Positions 1 to 6,960 of a stretch of DNA of 6,960 nucleotides are shown one piece after another; position 1 is the first letter of the stretch; each line of letters begins with the position of its first letter. A model generated the notes under the pieces. It was not told where the DNA came from. It saw only the letters and a list, made by a program, of their open reading frames with translations, and ran no database searches. The stretch comes from Fidelibacterota bacterium. Its GTDB lineage: Bacteria; Fidelibacterota; Marinisomatia; SCGC-AAA003-L08; D37C17. The stretch covers positions 1 through 6,960 of the forward strand of contig PARL01000014.1 in NCBI GenBank assembly GCA_002711465.1, in the 5' to 3' direction. The translations under genes and the position numbers were made by a program.

Positions 1-768
1 ATCTTCATTTAATGCATTCCACTGGTAATCATAAAATAATGCCTCATGAGCTAGGTAATGTAAATAATTACCAATGAATCCATCAGGATTAGATAATGAG
101 CCTATTTCTTGGAGTTCCTGAAATTGATTAATACCAAGCGCAGATCTATTTGCTAAACCAGTAGATAACCAACCTTCATATTCAGATATTTTTTTTGCAG
201 AATAATGTAAATGAGTTAACCAATGGTTTTGTAAAGACTCTGGAAATTGATTTAATATAACATCAAATTCATCTTTTAAATTCTGCATATCTTCGTAATT
301 AGAATCTAAATTAGATAAGAAAATATAATGTACATTTAATGGAGAATTTTGCAATAATTCTAATTTTACATTTTGTTGCCAAAGCGTATTAGAAGGAATA
401 AGTATAAAAGATTCTCCACCAATCCAGTTTTCCTCAAAATTCCATATTGCTGGTGTAAAATTAAAGATTTTATCAATAGAAAGTATTATATCTATAATGT
501 CGATGTTACTATCAGTATTAATATCTGAATATAATAAATCATTTTCATCAAAGTTGATTTCACCATCTAGATAAGAAGTGTATAATAAAATATCTTTTAA
601 ACTAATAGTCCTATCACCATCTAAATCTCCAACTTGCCTCACTCCTAAATCTTCTATTTGAAATGGTCCTGCAACATCTAAATAGTTTGTACCATAAGGA
701 CCATCTGAAAAATCTTGGCTTTGACTTAAACTAAATAAAAATAAAAATATGTAAATATAATTTTTCAA
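1..768 (-). CDS. Secreted dockerin protein, PNGase F-type paralog (partial, C-terminus off left edge)
   Basis: The first 256 codons are present and the gene runs off the window. Start: TTG at 768-766, nine bases after the stop of the upstream protease gene. The first in-frame ATG is codon 161, and only the TTG start gives a signal peptide (about residues 1-18, K2 then a hydrophobic run ending near SQSQ) matching the homolog at 5740. Layout: a short segment with GPYG and AGPF motifs (about 23-36); a dockerin at about 47-103 with two calcium loops (D48, D50, D52, T54, S56, D59 and D82, N84, D86, N88, D90, D93); then a conserved region of unknown fold (about 109-256) with HYIFLS, HWLTHLHY, LAHE and WNALNED motifs. 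All of these have counterparts in the same order in the protein at 5740, which continues into a PNGase F-like domain. A glycosidase domain here is therefore expected but lies outside the window. It is probably the last visible gene of the protease operon. Confidence is high that it is a gene and moderate for function. Confidence 0.85.
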   Translation of the reverse strand, partial: MKNYIYIFLFLFSLSQSQDFSDGPYGTNYLDVAGPFQIEDLGVRQVGDLDGDRTISLKDILLYTSYLDGEINFDENDLLYSDINTDSNIDIIDIILSIDKIFNFTPAIWNFEENWIGGESFILIPSNTLWQQNVKLELLQNSPLNVHYIFLSNLDSNYEDMQNLKDEFDVILNQFPESLQNHWLTHLHYSAKKISEYEGWLSTGLANRSALGINQFQELQEIGSLSNPDGFIGNYLHYLAHEALFYDYQWNALNED

Positions 769-786
769 TTTATAAGGTTAACCTGC
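766..786 (-). promoter_or_regulatory. Translation start region of the left-edge gene: TTG start coupled to upstream stop
   Basis: On the minus strand the protease gene ends GCA GGT TAA (786-778). Three sense codons, CCT TAT AAA, then lead to TTG (768-766) in the same reading frame. The only Shine-Dalgarno-like bases are AGG at 784-782, 13 bases from the start, which is too far to be convincing. By contrast the two protease genes have good GGAG or AGGA sites 8-9 bases from their ATG. Initiation here may therefore depend on ribosomes terminating at the protease stop codon (coupling), which is an inference. Confidence 0.5.
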
Positions 787-3198
787 TAAAATAATATTAA
801 CTAATAGTATTATATCTTGAACATTGATATTGCCATCTAAATTCATATCAGAAACAATTAAATCACACTCTCCACCTTGGCTAGTACCTAAAATAATATT
901 TAAAACTAAAATTACATCCTGAACATTTAGATTACCATCATTATTTGCATCTCCAGCATTCCATTGAGAGCAAGCATCAGTGATATTTAACTCAAATGGA
1001 ATTTCAAACAAATAATTATTATAATCATTTGTTTGTATTTTGATAATATCATAATAAGTACCCTCAACTAAATCTGCAGTATTAATATCTAAATTAATAT
1101 TAAGATTATTTCCAGGCATTAAATTTCCACTTAATGGAGAAATTTCTAACCACTCTGCTTTTGGTAAAATATTTGATGTTAAATTATTTTCAGCATAATT
1201 ATTATTGTAAGAAATTAATATTGCCTCATCTGAATTGGCTTGAGCGCCAATTGTAGCACTATTTACTTCACCTATTAAATTCAAATAGTTTAATTCAATT
1301 CTACCATCAACATGTAAAACCATTTGAAAAGTATAAAATGTATTTTCGAAGTTTGTCCACCAGTGAGCAACATTGTCAAATGTAACAACAAACTTATCTG
1401 AATATTGTTGATAATAAACTTCACCAGAACAATACTGATTACACTGATTATTAGTTGGGTTTAAATCATCCCACATTCCAAAAATAGCTGCTCCAGGAAC
1501 TTCATTTGTTGGAAGGGTAGCATTATCCCATGCTCCACTATCTCCATCTAAACCTATCCAGCCATTTGGATTAATTGTACATTGAGTGAATACTCTATTA
1601 TCAAATGGAAATTCAATTTGCATGTCAATTGGTTCTGGGGCATTGTCATTATCATTAAATACAACAATAGTTGCATTATCAAGTTCTATCCAATTTGATT
1701 CAAACATATCACCATTACTGTCTGCCCACTTATAATTATCTTGCGCTATCAAAAAATCTAATTCAGCTTCGCCTGCCAAGCCATTGGCAATGTTAATAGT
1801 TTCATAAATCGTTTGATTTGAGCCTGCTTCAATATTAAACTCATTAACATTGACTTGAGCATCTGGTTGTGCTGCAAAAAGTGAAACTGCATTAAATGCA
1901 TTTACTCTACCCCAGCCAGTTTGAGTATCATAACCAGTTGATCCAATATCTACACATGTAGCATGCATAGCGGCCCTTACATCTTCAGGAGCTAACTCTG
2001 GAGCCATTGAATATATAAGTCCAGCAACACCAGCAGCATGAGGACATGCAGAAGAAGTGCCATTAAATGTTGAAGTATAACCACCTATTGTAGCAGAATG
2101 AATTCTCACCCCTGGTGCTACAAAATCTAATCCATTACCATAATTACTTCCCCAAAAATTTTCTCCATCACAAGAACTTGGACTTTTTCTTTCATTACAT
2201 GGAGACATAGCACCAACTGAAACACAATCTTCATATGCGGCAGGATAAGATATGCTGCCATTGTCATTTCCAGATGCAGCTATAACAATTGTACCATTAT
2301 CATTTGCATAAGTAACTGCATTATCAAAACTGCTTTGATAACCTCCGCCACCTAAACTCATACTAATTACATTAGCACCGTTATCTGATGCCCAAATAAC
2401 ACCATTTATAATATCAGAGAAATCACCAAAACCTTGGTCACTTAAAACTTTGACAGGCATAAGACTACAGTCCCAACAAACACCCGCAACTCCTATTCCA
2501 TTGTTAGTTGTTCCTGCTGCAATGCTGCCACAAGCAGTACCATGCATATTACCATCATTAGCATTAGTATCATTATCAACAAAATCATAACCACCAACTA
2601 ATTCACTTGCTAAATCTGGATGATCTAAATCAATTCCTGTATCTAAAATTGCAATTACTACATTTGGATTACCAGTGGTTACATTCCATGCTCTTTCAGC
2701 ATCTACATCACATCCTGGAGTTCCAACACTATTACCATTATAAGATACTGCCTGACCTGTATTGTTTAAAGCCCATTGATCTGAATAATAATTGTCATTA
2801 GGCACTAAAAACGCTTCCATTTTAAAATTAAATTCCACATTTTCTACTTCAGGCAATGTTTTAATTTCAGAAATTAAATCCATTAAATTATAAACTGGCG
2901 ACTTAAATTCTAATCGATAATACCTATGTAAATGATTTGATATGTGTAGATGCGTGAAATTTTCATAAGTTCTAATGAGCGGTTTAATACTTTTAAAATT
3001 ATTATTTCTATCAAGATTCTTTAAATTACTAATTTGTGATAATGTTAAAGGTACCTCTTGACCAAGTAATGGAGCATGTTCTTCTTTAAACTCAATTATG
3101 ATAGAGTTGATTGAAATTTCATGATTACCAAAAACTTGCCAATCTTTATCCAAACTAAAACTTATGCAAAAAAGTAAAATTAAAAATATCTTATTCAT
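778..3198 (-). CDS. Secreted subtilisin-like serine protease (S8) with beta-sandwich/Ig-like region and C-terminal dockerin
   Basis: This 806-residue exported endopeptidase is predicted to cut proteins outside the cell. A signal peptide covers about residues 1-16 (K3 plus a hydrophobic core). A propeptide-like region follows (about 25-130). The S8 catalytic domain spans about 135-440: Asp186 in AILDTGIDLDHPD, His219 in MHGTACG, oxyanion Asn311 in AASGN and nucleophile Ser382 in GTSSACPH, so the triad is intact. Residues about 447-740 look like an Ig-like/BACON-type domain (WLEISPLSG near 683-691, then TNDYNN) with a nidogen-like beta-sandwich inserted (NGWIGLDG, MWDDLNP, FQMVLHVDGRIELNY). A dockerin closes the protein (749-806; loops D750, N752, D754, N756, D761 and D784, N786, D788, N790, D795). 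ATG is preceded by GGAG with 8-base spacing (3207-3210). The gene starts 19 bases after its shorter paralog ends, suggesting tandem duplication and one mRNA. Its catalytic domain has many cysteines, unlike classical subtilisins. Accessory domain names are tentative. Confidence 0.95.
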   Translation of the reverse strand: MNKIFLILLFCISFSLDKDWQVFGNHEISINSIIIEFKEEHAPLLGQEVPLTLSQISNLKNLDRNNNFKSIKPLIRTYENFTHLHISNHLHRYYRLEFKSPVYNLMDLISEIKTLPEVENVEFNFKMEAFLVPNDNYYSDQWALNNTGQAVSYNGNSVGTPGCDVDAERAWNVTTGNPNVVIAILDTGIDLDHPDLASELVGGYDFVDNDTNANDGNMHGTACGSIAAGTTNNGIGVAGVCWDCSLMPVKVLSDQGFGDFSDIINGVIWASDNGANVISMSLGGGGYQSSFDNAVTYANDNGTIVIAASGNDNGSISYPAAYEDCVSVGAMSPCNERKSPSSCDGENFWGSNYGNGLDFVAPGVRIHSATIGGYTSTFNGTSSACPHAAGVAGLIYSMAPELAPEDVRAAMHATCVDIGSTGYDTQTGWGRVNAFNAVSLFAAQPDAQVNVNEFNIEAGSNQTIYETINIANGLAGEAELDFLIAQDNYKWADSNGDMFESNWIELDNATIVVFNDNDNAPEPIDMQIEFPFDNRVFTQCTINPNGWIGLDGDSGAWDNATLPTNEVPGAAIFGMWDDLNPTNNQCNQYCSGEVYYQQYSDKFVVTFDNVAHWWTNFENTFYTFQMVLHVDGRIELNYLNLIGEVNSATIGAQANSDEAILISYNNNYAENNLTSNILPKAEWLEISPLSGNLMPGNNLNINLDINTADLVEGTYYDIIKIQTNDYNNYLFEIPFELNITDACSQWNAGDANNDGNLNVQDVILVLNIILGTSQGGECDLIVSDMNLDGNINVQDIILLVNIILAG

Positions 3199-3217: not shown

Positions 3218-4711
3218 TTAAACTAAAATTATTTGTATCAACAACATAATATCATTGATATTATTTATTCCATCAGAATTAATATCCCCTGAGGCATTGT
3301 AATCACCTAATAGTATTTCATCCATTAACAGAACTACATCATTAACATCAACACTTCCATCAGTATTAAGATCTCCTGAAACTGCATTTGGAACTAATAA
3401 TAGCGATTCGTACGCATTTACTTTACCATAGCCTGTTTCAATATCATAACCTTGCTCTGCTATATCATCTGCTCCTTGTCTTAAGATTTCTCTAATTGTA
3501 TAAGGATTTAAGTATGGATTTTTTGATAACATTAATCCTGCTATACCTGCTACATGAGGGCATGCGGATGAAGTTCCATTAAAATCTGTCCAATATCCTG
3601 CTCGTTTAGCAGTAGCAAAAATTCTGACTCCTGGTGCCACAAAATCAATCTGATCACCATATGTACTACCCCAGCCAGGTTCTGCATCACAGGAGTTAAC
3701 TCCTTGCTTGCGTTCGCAGCAAGGTGACATGGCTCCTACTGCAATACACTGATCATAACTTGCTGGATAAAAATCCATATTTGTATTAATATTTCCAGAT
3801 GCAGCAATTGTTACACTTCCATTTGCAACACTATAATTGACTGCTGATTCTAAAACTTCTTGATACTGTCCGCCACCTAAACTTAAACTAATTACATCTG
3901 CACCATGATCTGAAGCCCAAACAATTCCCTCTGAAATAATACCCCAATCTCCAGAACCATCATCATTTAAAACTTTAACGGACATAATACTGCAGTCAGG
4001 ACAAACCCCTGCAATACCTATATCATTGTTAATTGAAGCGGCTGCAATCCCTGCACATGGTGTGCCATGATCATATTCATCATCTGGAGGTAAAGAGTCA
4101 TTAACAAAATTATAACCACTTACAATATTATTTACTAAATCAGGATGATCTAAATCTACACCAGTATCTAAAATAGCAATTACAACAGATGATTCACCTG
4201 TTGTAATATCCCAAGCTAAATCTGTATCTAAATCACAATCAATCATTCCAATTAAATTTCCAGTACCATACTGAATTGCTTGTCTTTGATTATCATGGTC
4301 CCATTGATTTATATATAATTCATCATTTGGTACTAGTAATGTATTTGCCATTCCATTTGTAGTCACATTTTCAATGATATCTAAATTTTTTAAATTATCT
4401 ATAATTACTTCAAATAAATTATTATTCTCATATAATTCTAATCTATAAAATTGATGTAAATTATATTTGTAATGCAAATCTGTATATTGATTGATAGTAG
4501 AAAAAAGTGGAGAGAGTGTTCTAAAATTATCACTGTTATCTATACTGCTAATCTCATTTAAAGAAATTGGATTTTCTATTCCAAGCTTAGGTGCGTAATG
4601 TTCTGAAAATTTAACTATTAAAGTTTTAGGATGTACAAAATGTGAACCATAGAAAATATTTTCTGAAAAGATAAAACTAAATAGTAAAAAAATAATAACG
4701 GTGTTTTGCAT
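3218..4711 (-). CDS. Secreted subtilisin-like serine protease (S8) with C-terminal dockerin (short paralog)
   Basis: This 497-residue extracellular endopeptidase is the compact paralog of the downstream 806-residue protease. Residues 1-16 form a hydrophobic signal peptide, although no Lys or Arg precedes the core. A propeptide-like region follows (about 25-125) with counterparts of the downstream gene's HAPLLG and FKSIKPL stretches (YAPKLG, FRTLSPL). The S8 domain spans about 130-438: Asp182 in AILDTGVDLDHPD, His215 in DHGTPCAG, oxyanion Asn307 in AASGN and nucleophile Ser381 in GTSSACPHVAG, so all catalytic residues are present. It passes almost directly into a dockerin (446-497; loops D447, N449, D451, S453, D458 and D476, N478, D480, N484, D487). 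The roughly 300-residue Ig-like/beta-sandwich region of the paralog is absent. ATG is preceded by AGGA with 9-base spacing (4721-4724). It is probably the first gene of the protease unit, with a promoter-like sequence just upstream. No specificity can be assigned. Confidence 0.95.
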   Translation of the reverse strand: MQNTVIIFLLFSFIFSENIFYGSHFVHPKTLIVKFSEHYAPKLGIENPISLNEISSIDNSDNFRTLSPLFSTINQYTDLHYKYNLHQFYRLELYENNNLFEVIIDNLKNLDIIENVTTNGMANTLLVPNDELYINQWDHDNQRQAIQYGTGNLIGMIDCDLDTDLAWDITTGESSVVIAILDTGVDLDHPDLVNNIVSGYNFVNDSLPPDDEYDHGTPCAGIAAASINNDIGIAGVCPDCSIMSVKVLNDDGSGDWGIISEGIVWASDHGADVISLSLGGGQYQEVLESAVNYSVANGSVTIAASGNINTNMDFYPASYDQCIAVGAMSPCCERKQGVNSCDAEPGWGSTYGDQIDFVAPGVRIFATAKRAGYWTDFNGTSSACPHVAGIAGLMLSKNPYLNPYTIREILRQGADDIAEQGYDIETGYGKVNAYESLLLVPNAVSGDLNTDGSVDVNDVVLLMDEILLGDYNASGDINSDGINNINDIMLLIQIILV

Positions 4712-4779: not shown

Positions 4780-5646
4780 TTACTTTTTTTGATTTTGAGT
4801 AATTAAAAACAAGCCAAATATTGTGATTGTTCCTCCAAAAACAATATAGGCGTTGATGATTTGGCCAGGAAAAATAAAATATGCTATTATAGATGCTATA
4901 AAAGGCTCCCCTAATGGTATTGAGGCTACTACAGTGGGAGAAAAATATTTCACTAAATAGTAAAAAACACTATGGCCAATGATTGTAGGCACAACACCCA
5001 AAAATAATAAATACCAAAAATCATGATTTGAAAACGAAAATAAATTGATATCTAATATTATAGAAATGATAAACAATATTAAAGTTGCATATGTAAATAA
5101 AAACTTTGAAAAATTTACAGCACTTTCCTCCTTTCTTACTTTGTCTGATATTATAAATACAATTGCGAAACAAATTGAGCACGTTACAGCTAAAAGGTTA
5201 CCTTGCATAAGATTGCTATCAAAACTAAAATCAGATATGAACATAATAAATGAACCAGTAAGAACAATAATTAAACCTAGAACTAAATTAATTTTAATTT
5301 TTCTACCAAAATAAATTTCGATTAAAAGTGCAAAAAGTGGAGCAAGAGTTCCAAAAACAGTTGCATTTACAATGTTATTTGGAAGTAATGAAATTGAACT
5401 ATAAAAAAGTGCAAAATGTAATCCCAACAAAATTCCTGCTGAAATAGTTAAAATAGAATTTTTTTTTGATAAAGTTTTTTTACCTTTATAAAAAATACTA
5501 AAAGTATGCATAATAATTGAACCAATCATCATTCTCCAAAAAGCAATAGCAATTGGGTCTAAATGATTTAAGTATCTTGCTATTAACGGGGATGTACTAA
5601 CAGCAAACATTGAGCAAAAGAGCAGAATATATATTCCTATAGACAT
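4780..5646 (-). CDS. EamA/DMT-superfamily transporter (10 TM)
   Basis: This 288-residue inner-membrane protein has the usual length of drug/metabolite transporter (DMT) superfamily EamA proteins and their duplicated five-plus-five helix plan. Hydrophobic helices fall at about residues 3-23, 31-50, 65-84, 91-110, 117-138, 147-166, 178-198, 208-230, 238-260 and 262-283. Family features are the FWRMMIGS stretch at the second helix, GTLAPLFALLIE in the fourth, and SIPLGEPFIASIIAY in the ninth, matching the typical P-L-x-EP signature of the second repeat. Family members export or exchange amino acids and other small metabolites; the substrate cannot be read from sequence. The start at 5646 has no clear Shine-Dalgarno site, only AT-rich sequence. 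It lies 68 bases upstream of the protease genes on the same strand. No terminator is visible between them, so read-through is possible. It has no signal peptide or dockerin and may be an unrelated housekeeping neighbour. Confidence 0.9.
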   Translation of the reverse strand: MSIGIYILLFCSMFAVSTSPLIARYLNHLDPIAIAFWRMMIGSIIMHTFSIFYKGKKTLSKKNSILTISAGILLGLHFALFYSSISLLPNNIVNATVFGTLAPLFALLIEIYFGRKIKINLVLGLIIVLTGSFIMFISDFSFDSNLMQGNLLAVTCSICFAIVFIISDKVRKEESAVNFSKFLFTYATLILFIISIILDINLFSFSNHDFWYLLFLGVVPTIIGHSVFYYLVKYFSPTVVASIPLGEPFIASIIAYFIFPGQIINAYIVFGGTITIFGLFLITQNQKK

Positions 5647-5739: not shown

Positions 5740-6960
5740 ATGCCAAAAACATTTATAATTTATTTTTTACTTTTTTCTTTAATAACTACACAAGATTTTA
5801 ATGAAGGTCCATATGGCCAGGAGTATTTTGATATTGCAGGACCGTTTACAGTACTTGATTTAAATAATAGTACAGTTCTAGGTGATTTAAATGACGATTC
5901 TATATTAAACATAAATGATGTAATATTTTTAATTGGAATAATTTTAAATACCATTGATCTAGGAGATGAAGAAATAAATGGTGATATAAATATTGACGGT
6001 GATATTAACGTTTTAGATATTACTTTGCTTATAGAAAGAATATTATACCCTGATTCTTTTAATCCAGAAAATATATGGGATTTCCAAACTGAGTGGGATG
6101 GTGAAGATAATTATATGTTCATTCATTATGATCCTTCTAATACAAATTCGGTAAATATGTGGTCTGATAATTGTCCTGCTAATATTTGTTCAAATGGCTC
6201 TGATAGATTAACACTACTAGAAAAATCTAACTTAAATACTCATTATTTCTTTTTATCCTCAGGTGCAGATGCAGAAAGAGATATAACTCTTATTCAAGAA
6301 TTTTTCAAAAATACTATTGAGCAAAATATGTCTCCAGAAATGCAAGAACACTGGAAAAAACACTTACATTTTGTACCAACACCTGTAAGTGAACTTGATA
6401 ATTGGATAGAACAGAGAATTGTTGGGACATATGCATTTTCTATTGATAGATTTCAAAGAATTAAACAGTCTGGATATTTAGGAAATCCAGCCGGCTTTAC
6501 AGGTTTTTATATGAATTTCTTAGCGCATGAAGTAACATATCAAGATTATGAATGGAATGCATTAAATGAAGATGAGAATACCTATGATGAGGTGTCTGTA
6601 TTTGAAAGAGAATTATATACAGGTGGCTGGGCGGCTACTATTGAAAAAATTGTAGAATTTCCTGCGCTTGATCAATTAAATAATTATAGTGGTATGTCAA
6701 TTGAACTGTTAAGAGGTTGCCCAGACGCTAATGGAAATTATAGTGATCAAGGATGTGATGATTATGACCGTAAAGCAAGGATGTTCATATGCGATGAAGA
6801 TGGCTCAAATTGCCATGAGGCAGCTAGATGGATTACACCCTTTGATCGTCAACCTCATCATTTAACAGACATAAGTCCATTTATATCGATGTTAAAACCT
6901 GGTGGTAATAAATTAATTAAGTTCCAAGAATCAGGTTGGCCAAATAGTTTATTAACTATG
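5740..6960 (+). CDS. Secreted dockerin-bearing PNGase F-like glycoprotein amidase (partial, C-terminus off right edge)
   Basis: 407 codons are open to the window end. PNGase F enzymes cleave the amide bond between Asn and the first GlcNAc of N-glycans. Order: signal peptide (about 1-18), GPYG/AGPF segment (23-36), dockerin (48-104; loops D49, N51, D53, N57, D60 and D82, N84, D86, D88, N90, D93), a conserved middle region of unknown fold (about 112-310; FFLSS, HWKKHLHF, SIDRFQRIK, LAHEV), then the start of a PNGase F N-domain (about 318-407). That last part holds CDDYDR with Asp343 placed like catalytic Asp60 (CDEWDR) of Elizabethkingia PNGase F, a preceding Cys327/Cys339 pair like Cys51/Cys56, RWITP (cf. 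RFITP), LTDISPFISML (cf. IDVTDFKSLL), and Glu397 in FQESGW placed like Glu118. The residue matching Glu206 and the C-terminal domain lie outside the window. ATG has AGGA 8 bases upstream (5728-5731). Divergent from the transporter; paralog of the left-edge gene. Comparison with PNGase F is from memory of its sequence. Confidence 0.88.
   Translation, partial: MPKTFIIYFLLFSLITTQDFNEGPYGQEYFDIAGPFTVLDLNNSTVLGDLNDDSILNINDVIFLIGIILNTIDLGDEEINGDINIDGDINVLDITLLIERILYPDSFNPENIWDFQTEWDGEDNYMFIHYDPSNTNSVNMWSDNCPANICSNGSDRLTLLEKSNLNTHYFFLSSGADAERDITLIQEFFKNTIEQNMSPEMQEHWKKHLHFVPTPVSELDNWIEQRIVGTYAFSIDRFQRIKQSGYLGNPAGFTGFYMNFLAHEVTYQDYEWNALNEDENTYDEVSVFERELYTGGWAATIEKIVEFPALDQLNNYSGMSIELLRGCPDANGNYSDQGCDDYDRKARMFICDEDGSNCHEAARWITPFDRQPHHLTDISPFISMLKPGGNKLIKFQESGWPNSLLTM

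Follow-up and report, generated by a model that had tools for sequence, protein, structure and literature searches.

Bacterial PNGases are commonly extracellular and serve nutrient acquisition (PMC10154615). Only in 2025 did the gene of Ngly2, the acid PNGase of fish, receive its name, and orthologs in some bacteria were mentioned (PMC12753239). Ngly2 is an active PNGase that carries a histidine at the place of PNGase F Trp191; alanine mutants of its Asp421 and Glu555 lost all activity, and its thioredoxin-like domain forms part of the dimer interface (PMC12753239). Its authors wish for pH profiles of bacterial enzymes, ask why aquatic organisms share the enzyme and speculate on an order of deglycosylation followed by proteolysis in fish eggs (PMC12753239). 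For Candidatus Stygibacter, a complex was inferred from genomes that includes a cohesin protein whose conserved C-terminal domain serves surface attachment; its authors refer in this context to a review of the type IX secretion system (T9SS) (PMC8542988). Here we describe a gene for a PNGase F/Ngly2 relative in a stretch of 6,960 nucleotides (the window), which covers positions 1-6960 of contig C21 in a 1.12 Mb, 80.6% complete assembly of a Fidelibacterota bacterium. The host is presumably marine and free-living because its lineage is Candidatus Neomarinimicrobiota (SAR406, Marinimicrobia). The locus encodes a two-part PNGase domain with the catalytic aspartate and glutamate, a dockerin, and two nearby dockerin-bearing subtilases. 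We consider it fairly probable that the protein is a secreted, dockerin-tagged enzyme which removes N-glycans and docks on surface cohesins together with dockerin-bearing peptidases.

PNGase domain, active site and domain order

An ATG at position 5740 of the forward strand opens a frame without a stop up to the window end at 6960. This frame encodes residues 1-407 of about 594, and on the 56,711-base contig the gene runs on past the window to about C21:7522, as judged from the open frame and an intact homolog. The reading frame is lost among ten ambiguous bases in 6961-7018, just beyond the window, and coding picks up again at L001:7019-7522 on the same contig with the C-terminal half; the two halves were treated separately. 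The intact form is represented by the database protein P0001 (594 residues), which is identical to the window at 407/407 residues.

The first part of the PNGase domain, residues 280-407 (6577..6960, + strand), was recognized by phmmer and in the structure model. Four motifs on which a sequence-only reading of the window had based a PNGase F-like assignment (CDDYDR, RWITP, LTDISPF and FQESGW) were all found at the positions it gave, numbered from the ATG at 5740, and the matches to Ngly2 and PF09113 exclude chance. Searched against PDB, the window protein matched zebrafish Ngly2 (9lwg) with E 3.3e-9 and PNGase F only weakly (E 0.55). The C-terminal half matched PF09113 with E 1.3e-20 (74.1 bits, cut-off 25), Ngly2 with 3.5e-16 and PNGase F (3pms) with 3.6e-5.

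Tyr342-Asp343-Arg344 (6763..6771, + strand) aligned with Trp59-Asp60-Arg61 of PNGase F and Trp420-Asp421-His422 of Ngly2, the Asp343 codon being 6766-6768. In the C-terminal half, Glu476 aligned with Glu206 and His465 with Trp191. Asp343, Arg344, His465 and Glu476 were each kept in 56/56 aligned sequences, a hand-picked set of 52 of the 120 listed relatives (including P0001; length 540-640, thinned by shared words) and four proteins from the loci described below, with fragments dropped. The Asp60 counterpart named in the sequence-only reading was thus confirmed, as were the C-terminal domain and the Glu206 equivalent on which it had made its assignment depend. The proposed counterpart of Glu118, Glu397 (6928..6930, + strand), was present in 53/56 sequences and sits one place off Glu118 in the sequence alignment, so that this part of the claim is uncertain. 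Asp343 and Glu476 would act as Asp60 and Glu206 do, in hydrolysis of the GlcNAc-Asn bond.

Ahead of the PNGase domain, a Sec signal peptide is predicted for residues 1 to about 18 (5740..5793, + strand) from a hydrophobic N-terminus judged by eye and a helix at 2-15 in the model. It is followed by a type I dockerin at residues 47-102 (5878..6045, + strand) with acidic residues kept in both calcium loops. This N-terminal dockerin had been noticed before and was recovered with PF00404, at 20.1 bits in one search (just below the cut-off of 22.9) and 25.6 bits in another. Residues 105-275 (6052..6564, + strand), previously taken as an extra domain of unknown kind, are predicted from model and alignment to form a thioredoxin-like domain similar to that of zebrafish Ngly2, without CxxC and without a protease-associated (PA) insert. 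An esterase (7v8u) was rejected as kin of this domain (E 0.07-0.09, not significant). Residues 226-237, twelve in number, lie opposite about 150 residues of Ngly2 (172-323) in a weakly aligned stretch with a numbering offset of 25. The segment 215-245 comprised 31 residues in 56/56 rows with no insert, and the whole stretch 105-275 measured 149-171 residues across all 56 rows compared to 293 for Ngly2 51-343. Consistent with this, no PA domain was matched by Pfam in the window at E up to 1. The dockerin stretch was covered to at least 92% and the thioredoxin-like stretch to at least 87% in 56/56 sequences, a result favoured by the choice of nearly full-length proteins for this set.

Dockerins and a candidate cohesin

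The own genome contains 39 dockerin matches. In 24/25 other dockerin frames read from it the dockerin is C-terminal, whereas it is N-terminal in the PNGase. On the same contig, C21:16438-17160 (- strand) encodes a small T9SS-tailed protein with a predicted cohesin fold that is missed by the Pfam cohesin profile; 138 relatives were found at E up to 0.001, and the model was built from a database copy 96% identical to it. The two further genomes of the genus each have Pfam cohesins. When the T9SS-tailed family was compared by profile with L090, a cohesin recognized by Pfam, the probability was 98.7% over 213 columns; this was not counted for cohesin because much of the match is the shared T9SS tail.

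Two side observations were made on this system. L103 (G176:C3) is a scaffoldin-like frame of 2904 residues with repeated cohesin-like domains and a T9SS tail, in which at least five stretches match the T9SS-tailed protein of C21. The own genome also encodes four arylsulfotransferase-type proteins with C-terminal dockerins (L059, L065, L071, L087) within 1.1 Mb.

Neighbouring genes and spread in the phylum

Divergently from the PNGase gene lies an EamA transporter gene (4780..5646, - strand; Pfam). Past it follow two genes for S8 subtilases with C-terminal dockerins, also recognized by Pfam: 3218..4711 (- strand; dockerin at 3224-3376) and 778..3198 (- strand; dockerin at 787-957), a full-length relative of the latter adjoining the PNGase in L033. 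At 1..768 (- strand), another member of the dockerin-bearing family of the PNGase is represented by its N-terminal part, being cut by the contig end (dockerin at 481-630), and shows 39% identity to the PNGase gene over residues 6-278; no separate C-terminal half for it was found in the assembly by PF09113 and P0001 searches. Downstream, L001:10413-15663 carries two related TonB-receptor-like genes, the first recognized by Pfam and the second 49% identical to the first.

Among 17 loci of the dockerin-type PNGase, the EamA gene was present in seven, and a FG-GAP protein with a T9SS tail was encoded immediately downstream of the PNGase in four. In this tally the duplicates L005=L033 and L006=L044 were each counted once, L007 and L008 are cut, and L001 and L004, both from the own genome, may be one locus. 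EamA genes also occur in three loci of a second PNGase clade (L039, L041, L043), hence this neighbour is not specific to the dockerin type. In the own genome the FG-GAP protein (L001:7516-9459) lies directly 3′ of the PNGase, and the gene pair is also found in L028, L035 and L042; by eye, the N-terminal region of the FG-GAP protein, for which four relatives were aligned, looks cohesin-like.

The own assembly holds a second copy of the PNGase, an open frame at C9:112903-114687 with some ambiguous bases that is 98% identical to P0001. Compared in 200-base steps, the C9 and C21 copies are 97.5-100% identical over 5401-7200 and drop to 78% and 63% beyond; contig C9 ends about 100 bases past the start of the likeness. 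Recent duplication, gene conversion and a strain mix-up in the assembly would all look like this, yet the ambiguous bases together with the sharp edges of the near-identical block make strain mixing likely. Within 6961-20000, L001 contains 72 ambiguous bases, the first immediately after the window end. A search of viral contigs with six short sequence patterns revealed no related DNA.

PF09113 was matched in 66/245 genomes of the phylum, 29/84 genera and 18/94 high-quality genomes, counts that include the second clade, which is related weakly or undetectably to the dockerin type. Of this clade, L038, L041 and L043 are 22-23% identical over the PNGase part, and L039, L045 and L046 gave no match at 1e-6. 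The PF09113 proteins of L009-L013 scored about 158-160 bits compared to 73 for the window gene, and their likeness to P0001 was weak or undetected where compared. Within the same family, 20/22 other genomes matched PF09113. Among the 120 relatives listed (330 were found), the precomputed Pfam table named a dockerin in only 42. The architecture of dockerin, thioredoxin-like domain and PNGase, which the sequence-only reading had called unusual, is ordinary in this lineage. It did not turn up in literature searches linking PNGase F with Marinimicrobia, Marinimicrobia with dockerin, or PNGase F with dockerin. Judged by these searches, the novel features are the PA-less branch with a dockerin tag, its hold on a single lineage and its mixed active site.

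Proposed role and comparison with known systems

In the reading that we prefer, the PNGase would be exported from the cell, and its dockerin would dock on cell-surface cohesin proteins that also hold dockerin-tagged peptidases. There it would cut N-glycans from glycoproteins, not to harvest the sugars but to open the proteins to proteolysis and uptake of the peptides; this use appears likelier since two dockerin subtilases lie close by and none of GH92, GH20 and GH130 was matched in the 80.6% complete own assembly. Because the PA lid over the Ngly2 cleft is absent here, the enzyme would be expected to take bulkier and more folded glycoproteins than Ngly2.

Several observations weigh against this reading. 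The own genome yielded no hit to PF00963 (cohesin), although absences there are soft because the assembly is 80.6% complete. The model of the candidate cohesin reached a predicted template modelling score (pTM) of 0.51, its cohesin matches, among the 16 rows listed first, were 8-17% identical, and its Foldseek list is headed by another protein and contains many antibody chains. No T9SS tail was found on the PNGase (C-terminal half searched; PNPF motif in 0/56 C-termini), leaving passage over the outer membrane unexplained. Periplasmic relatives exist for several other dockerin proteins of this genome (EndoI, ASST and GSDH types). The window subtilases are not adjacent to the PNGase, since the EamA gene lies in between and they are encoded on the opposite strand, and a full subtilase occurs in only 2/17 loci. 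Glu476 directly follows a low-confidence stretch of the model (470-473). Finally, a match to the N-domain profile PF09112, which had been proposed as a check of the assignment, was obtained neither in the window nor in the C-terminal half or own genome, and this profile is absent from the precomputed domains of all 120 relatives listed. Taken alone the result for the own genome carries little weight, as 14 controls also lacked a match. In the model, however, the PNGase F superposition starts at residue 279 and thus spans the N-domain.

Four other explanations were considered; they overlap in part, and their probabilities need not sum to one. It is rather doubtful that an active PNGase, free or periplasmic, carries its dockerin only as a calcium-stabilised accessory domain. 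The missing PF00963 match, the lack of a T9SS tail and the N-terminal position would agree with this, whereas the abundance of dockerins in the genome, the T9SS-tailed protein of C21 with its predicted cohesin fold and the Pfam cohesins of the other two genomes argue for docking. Harvest of sugar, with freed N-glycans imported and degraded as a carbon source as in Bacteroides, would suit the downstream TonB-receptor-like genes and the commonly extracellular, nutritional role of bacterial PNGases (PMC10154615). We nevertheless judge it unlikely, as no GH92, GH20 or GH130 was matched (GH38, GH2 and GH18 were not searched); the use of N-glycoproteins proposed in the sequence-only reading hence remains plausible, its sugar part unsupported.

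That the PNGase fold serves some other function here, for instance as a lectin or a different amidase, is very improbable. Tyr342 in place of Trp59, His465 in place of Trp191 and the PF09112 result could be read in its favour, but the catalytic aspartate and glutamate are invariant, and Ngly2 is active with the same histidine (PMC12753239). Least credible of all is a housekeeping enzyme acting on the N-glycoproteins of the cell itself: a secreted enzyme could in principle reach the envelope proteins of its own cell, but STT3/PglB was unmatched in the own genome by a search that was positive in four archaeal controls.

Going beyond the preferred reading of a docked, N-glycan-removing PNGase, we tentatively suggest a wider view, which may well not hold. 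Small-genome, free-living Marinimicrobia would possess a T9SS-anchored cohesin-dockerin complex for eating glycoproteins, a "cellulosome" for protein in which the PA-less PNGase strips N-glycans and the remainder is digested by dockerin-bearing subtilases, carboxypeptidases and nucleases held by the same anchors. In the aquatic Ngly2 family, the bacterial form without PA would then be ancestral, and the animal PA lid a later insertion that narrowed the substrates of Ngly2. The lineage supplies dozens of lid-free sequences (56/56 aligned), in which one Ngly2 histidine is replaced by the PNGase F arginine, so that the questions of the Ngly2 authors on pH and aquatic spread become testable. Docking, if true, would add oceanic glycoprotein to the substrates of cohesin-dockerin machinery and give a largely uncultured phylum a concrete role; a lid-free PNGase could also serve as a reagent.

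Among described systems, Candidatus Stygibacter (Cloacimonadota) resembles this genome in its dockerin peptidases (S8 and C25, with C-terminal dockerins) and a surface-attached cohesin protein (PMC8542988). A PNGase is not named in the cited part of its description, and it has a tandem-cohesin scaffoldin of 3,755 residues in contrast to the predicted single-cohesin protein of a small, likely marine genome (PMC8542988). PNGF-II and the Bacteroides PNGases (4r4x, 7zgn, 3ks7) aligned with the PNGase core alone (model residues 278-594), and their sequence match is weaker (3ks7, E 0.16 with the C-terminal half). Compared to PNGase F of Elizabethkingia (1pnf, 1pgs), the protein has tyrosine for Trp59, histidine for Trp191, two extra N-terminal domains and no PF09112 match. 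Its nearest solved relative is not PNGase F but zebrafish Ngly2 (9lwg). Both have a thioredoxin-like domain without CxxC ahead of the PNGase domain, but that of Ngly2 carries an inserted PA domain, and the window protein is bacterial with an N-terminal dockerin. Of the active-site histidines of Ngly2, His546 is matched by His465 and His422 is replaced by Arg344, both in 56/56 sequences. An arginine of PNGase F thus stands at the place of one Ngly2 histidine, resulting in a mixed active site.
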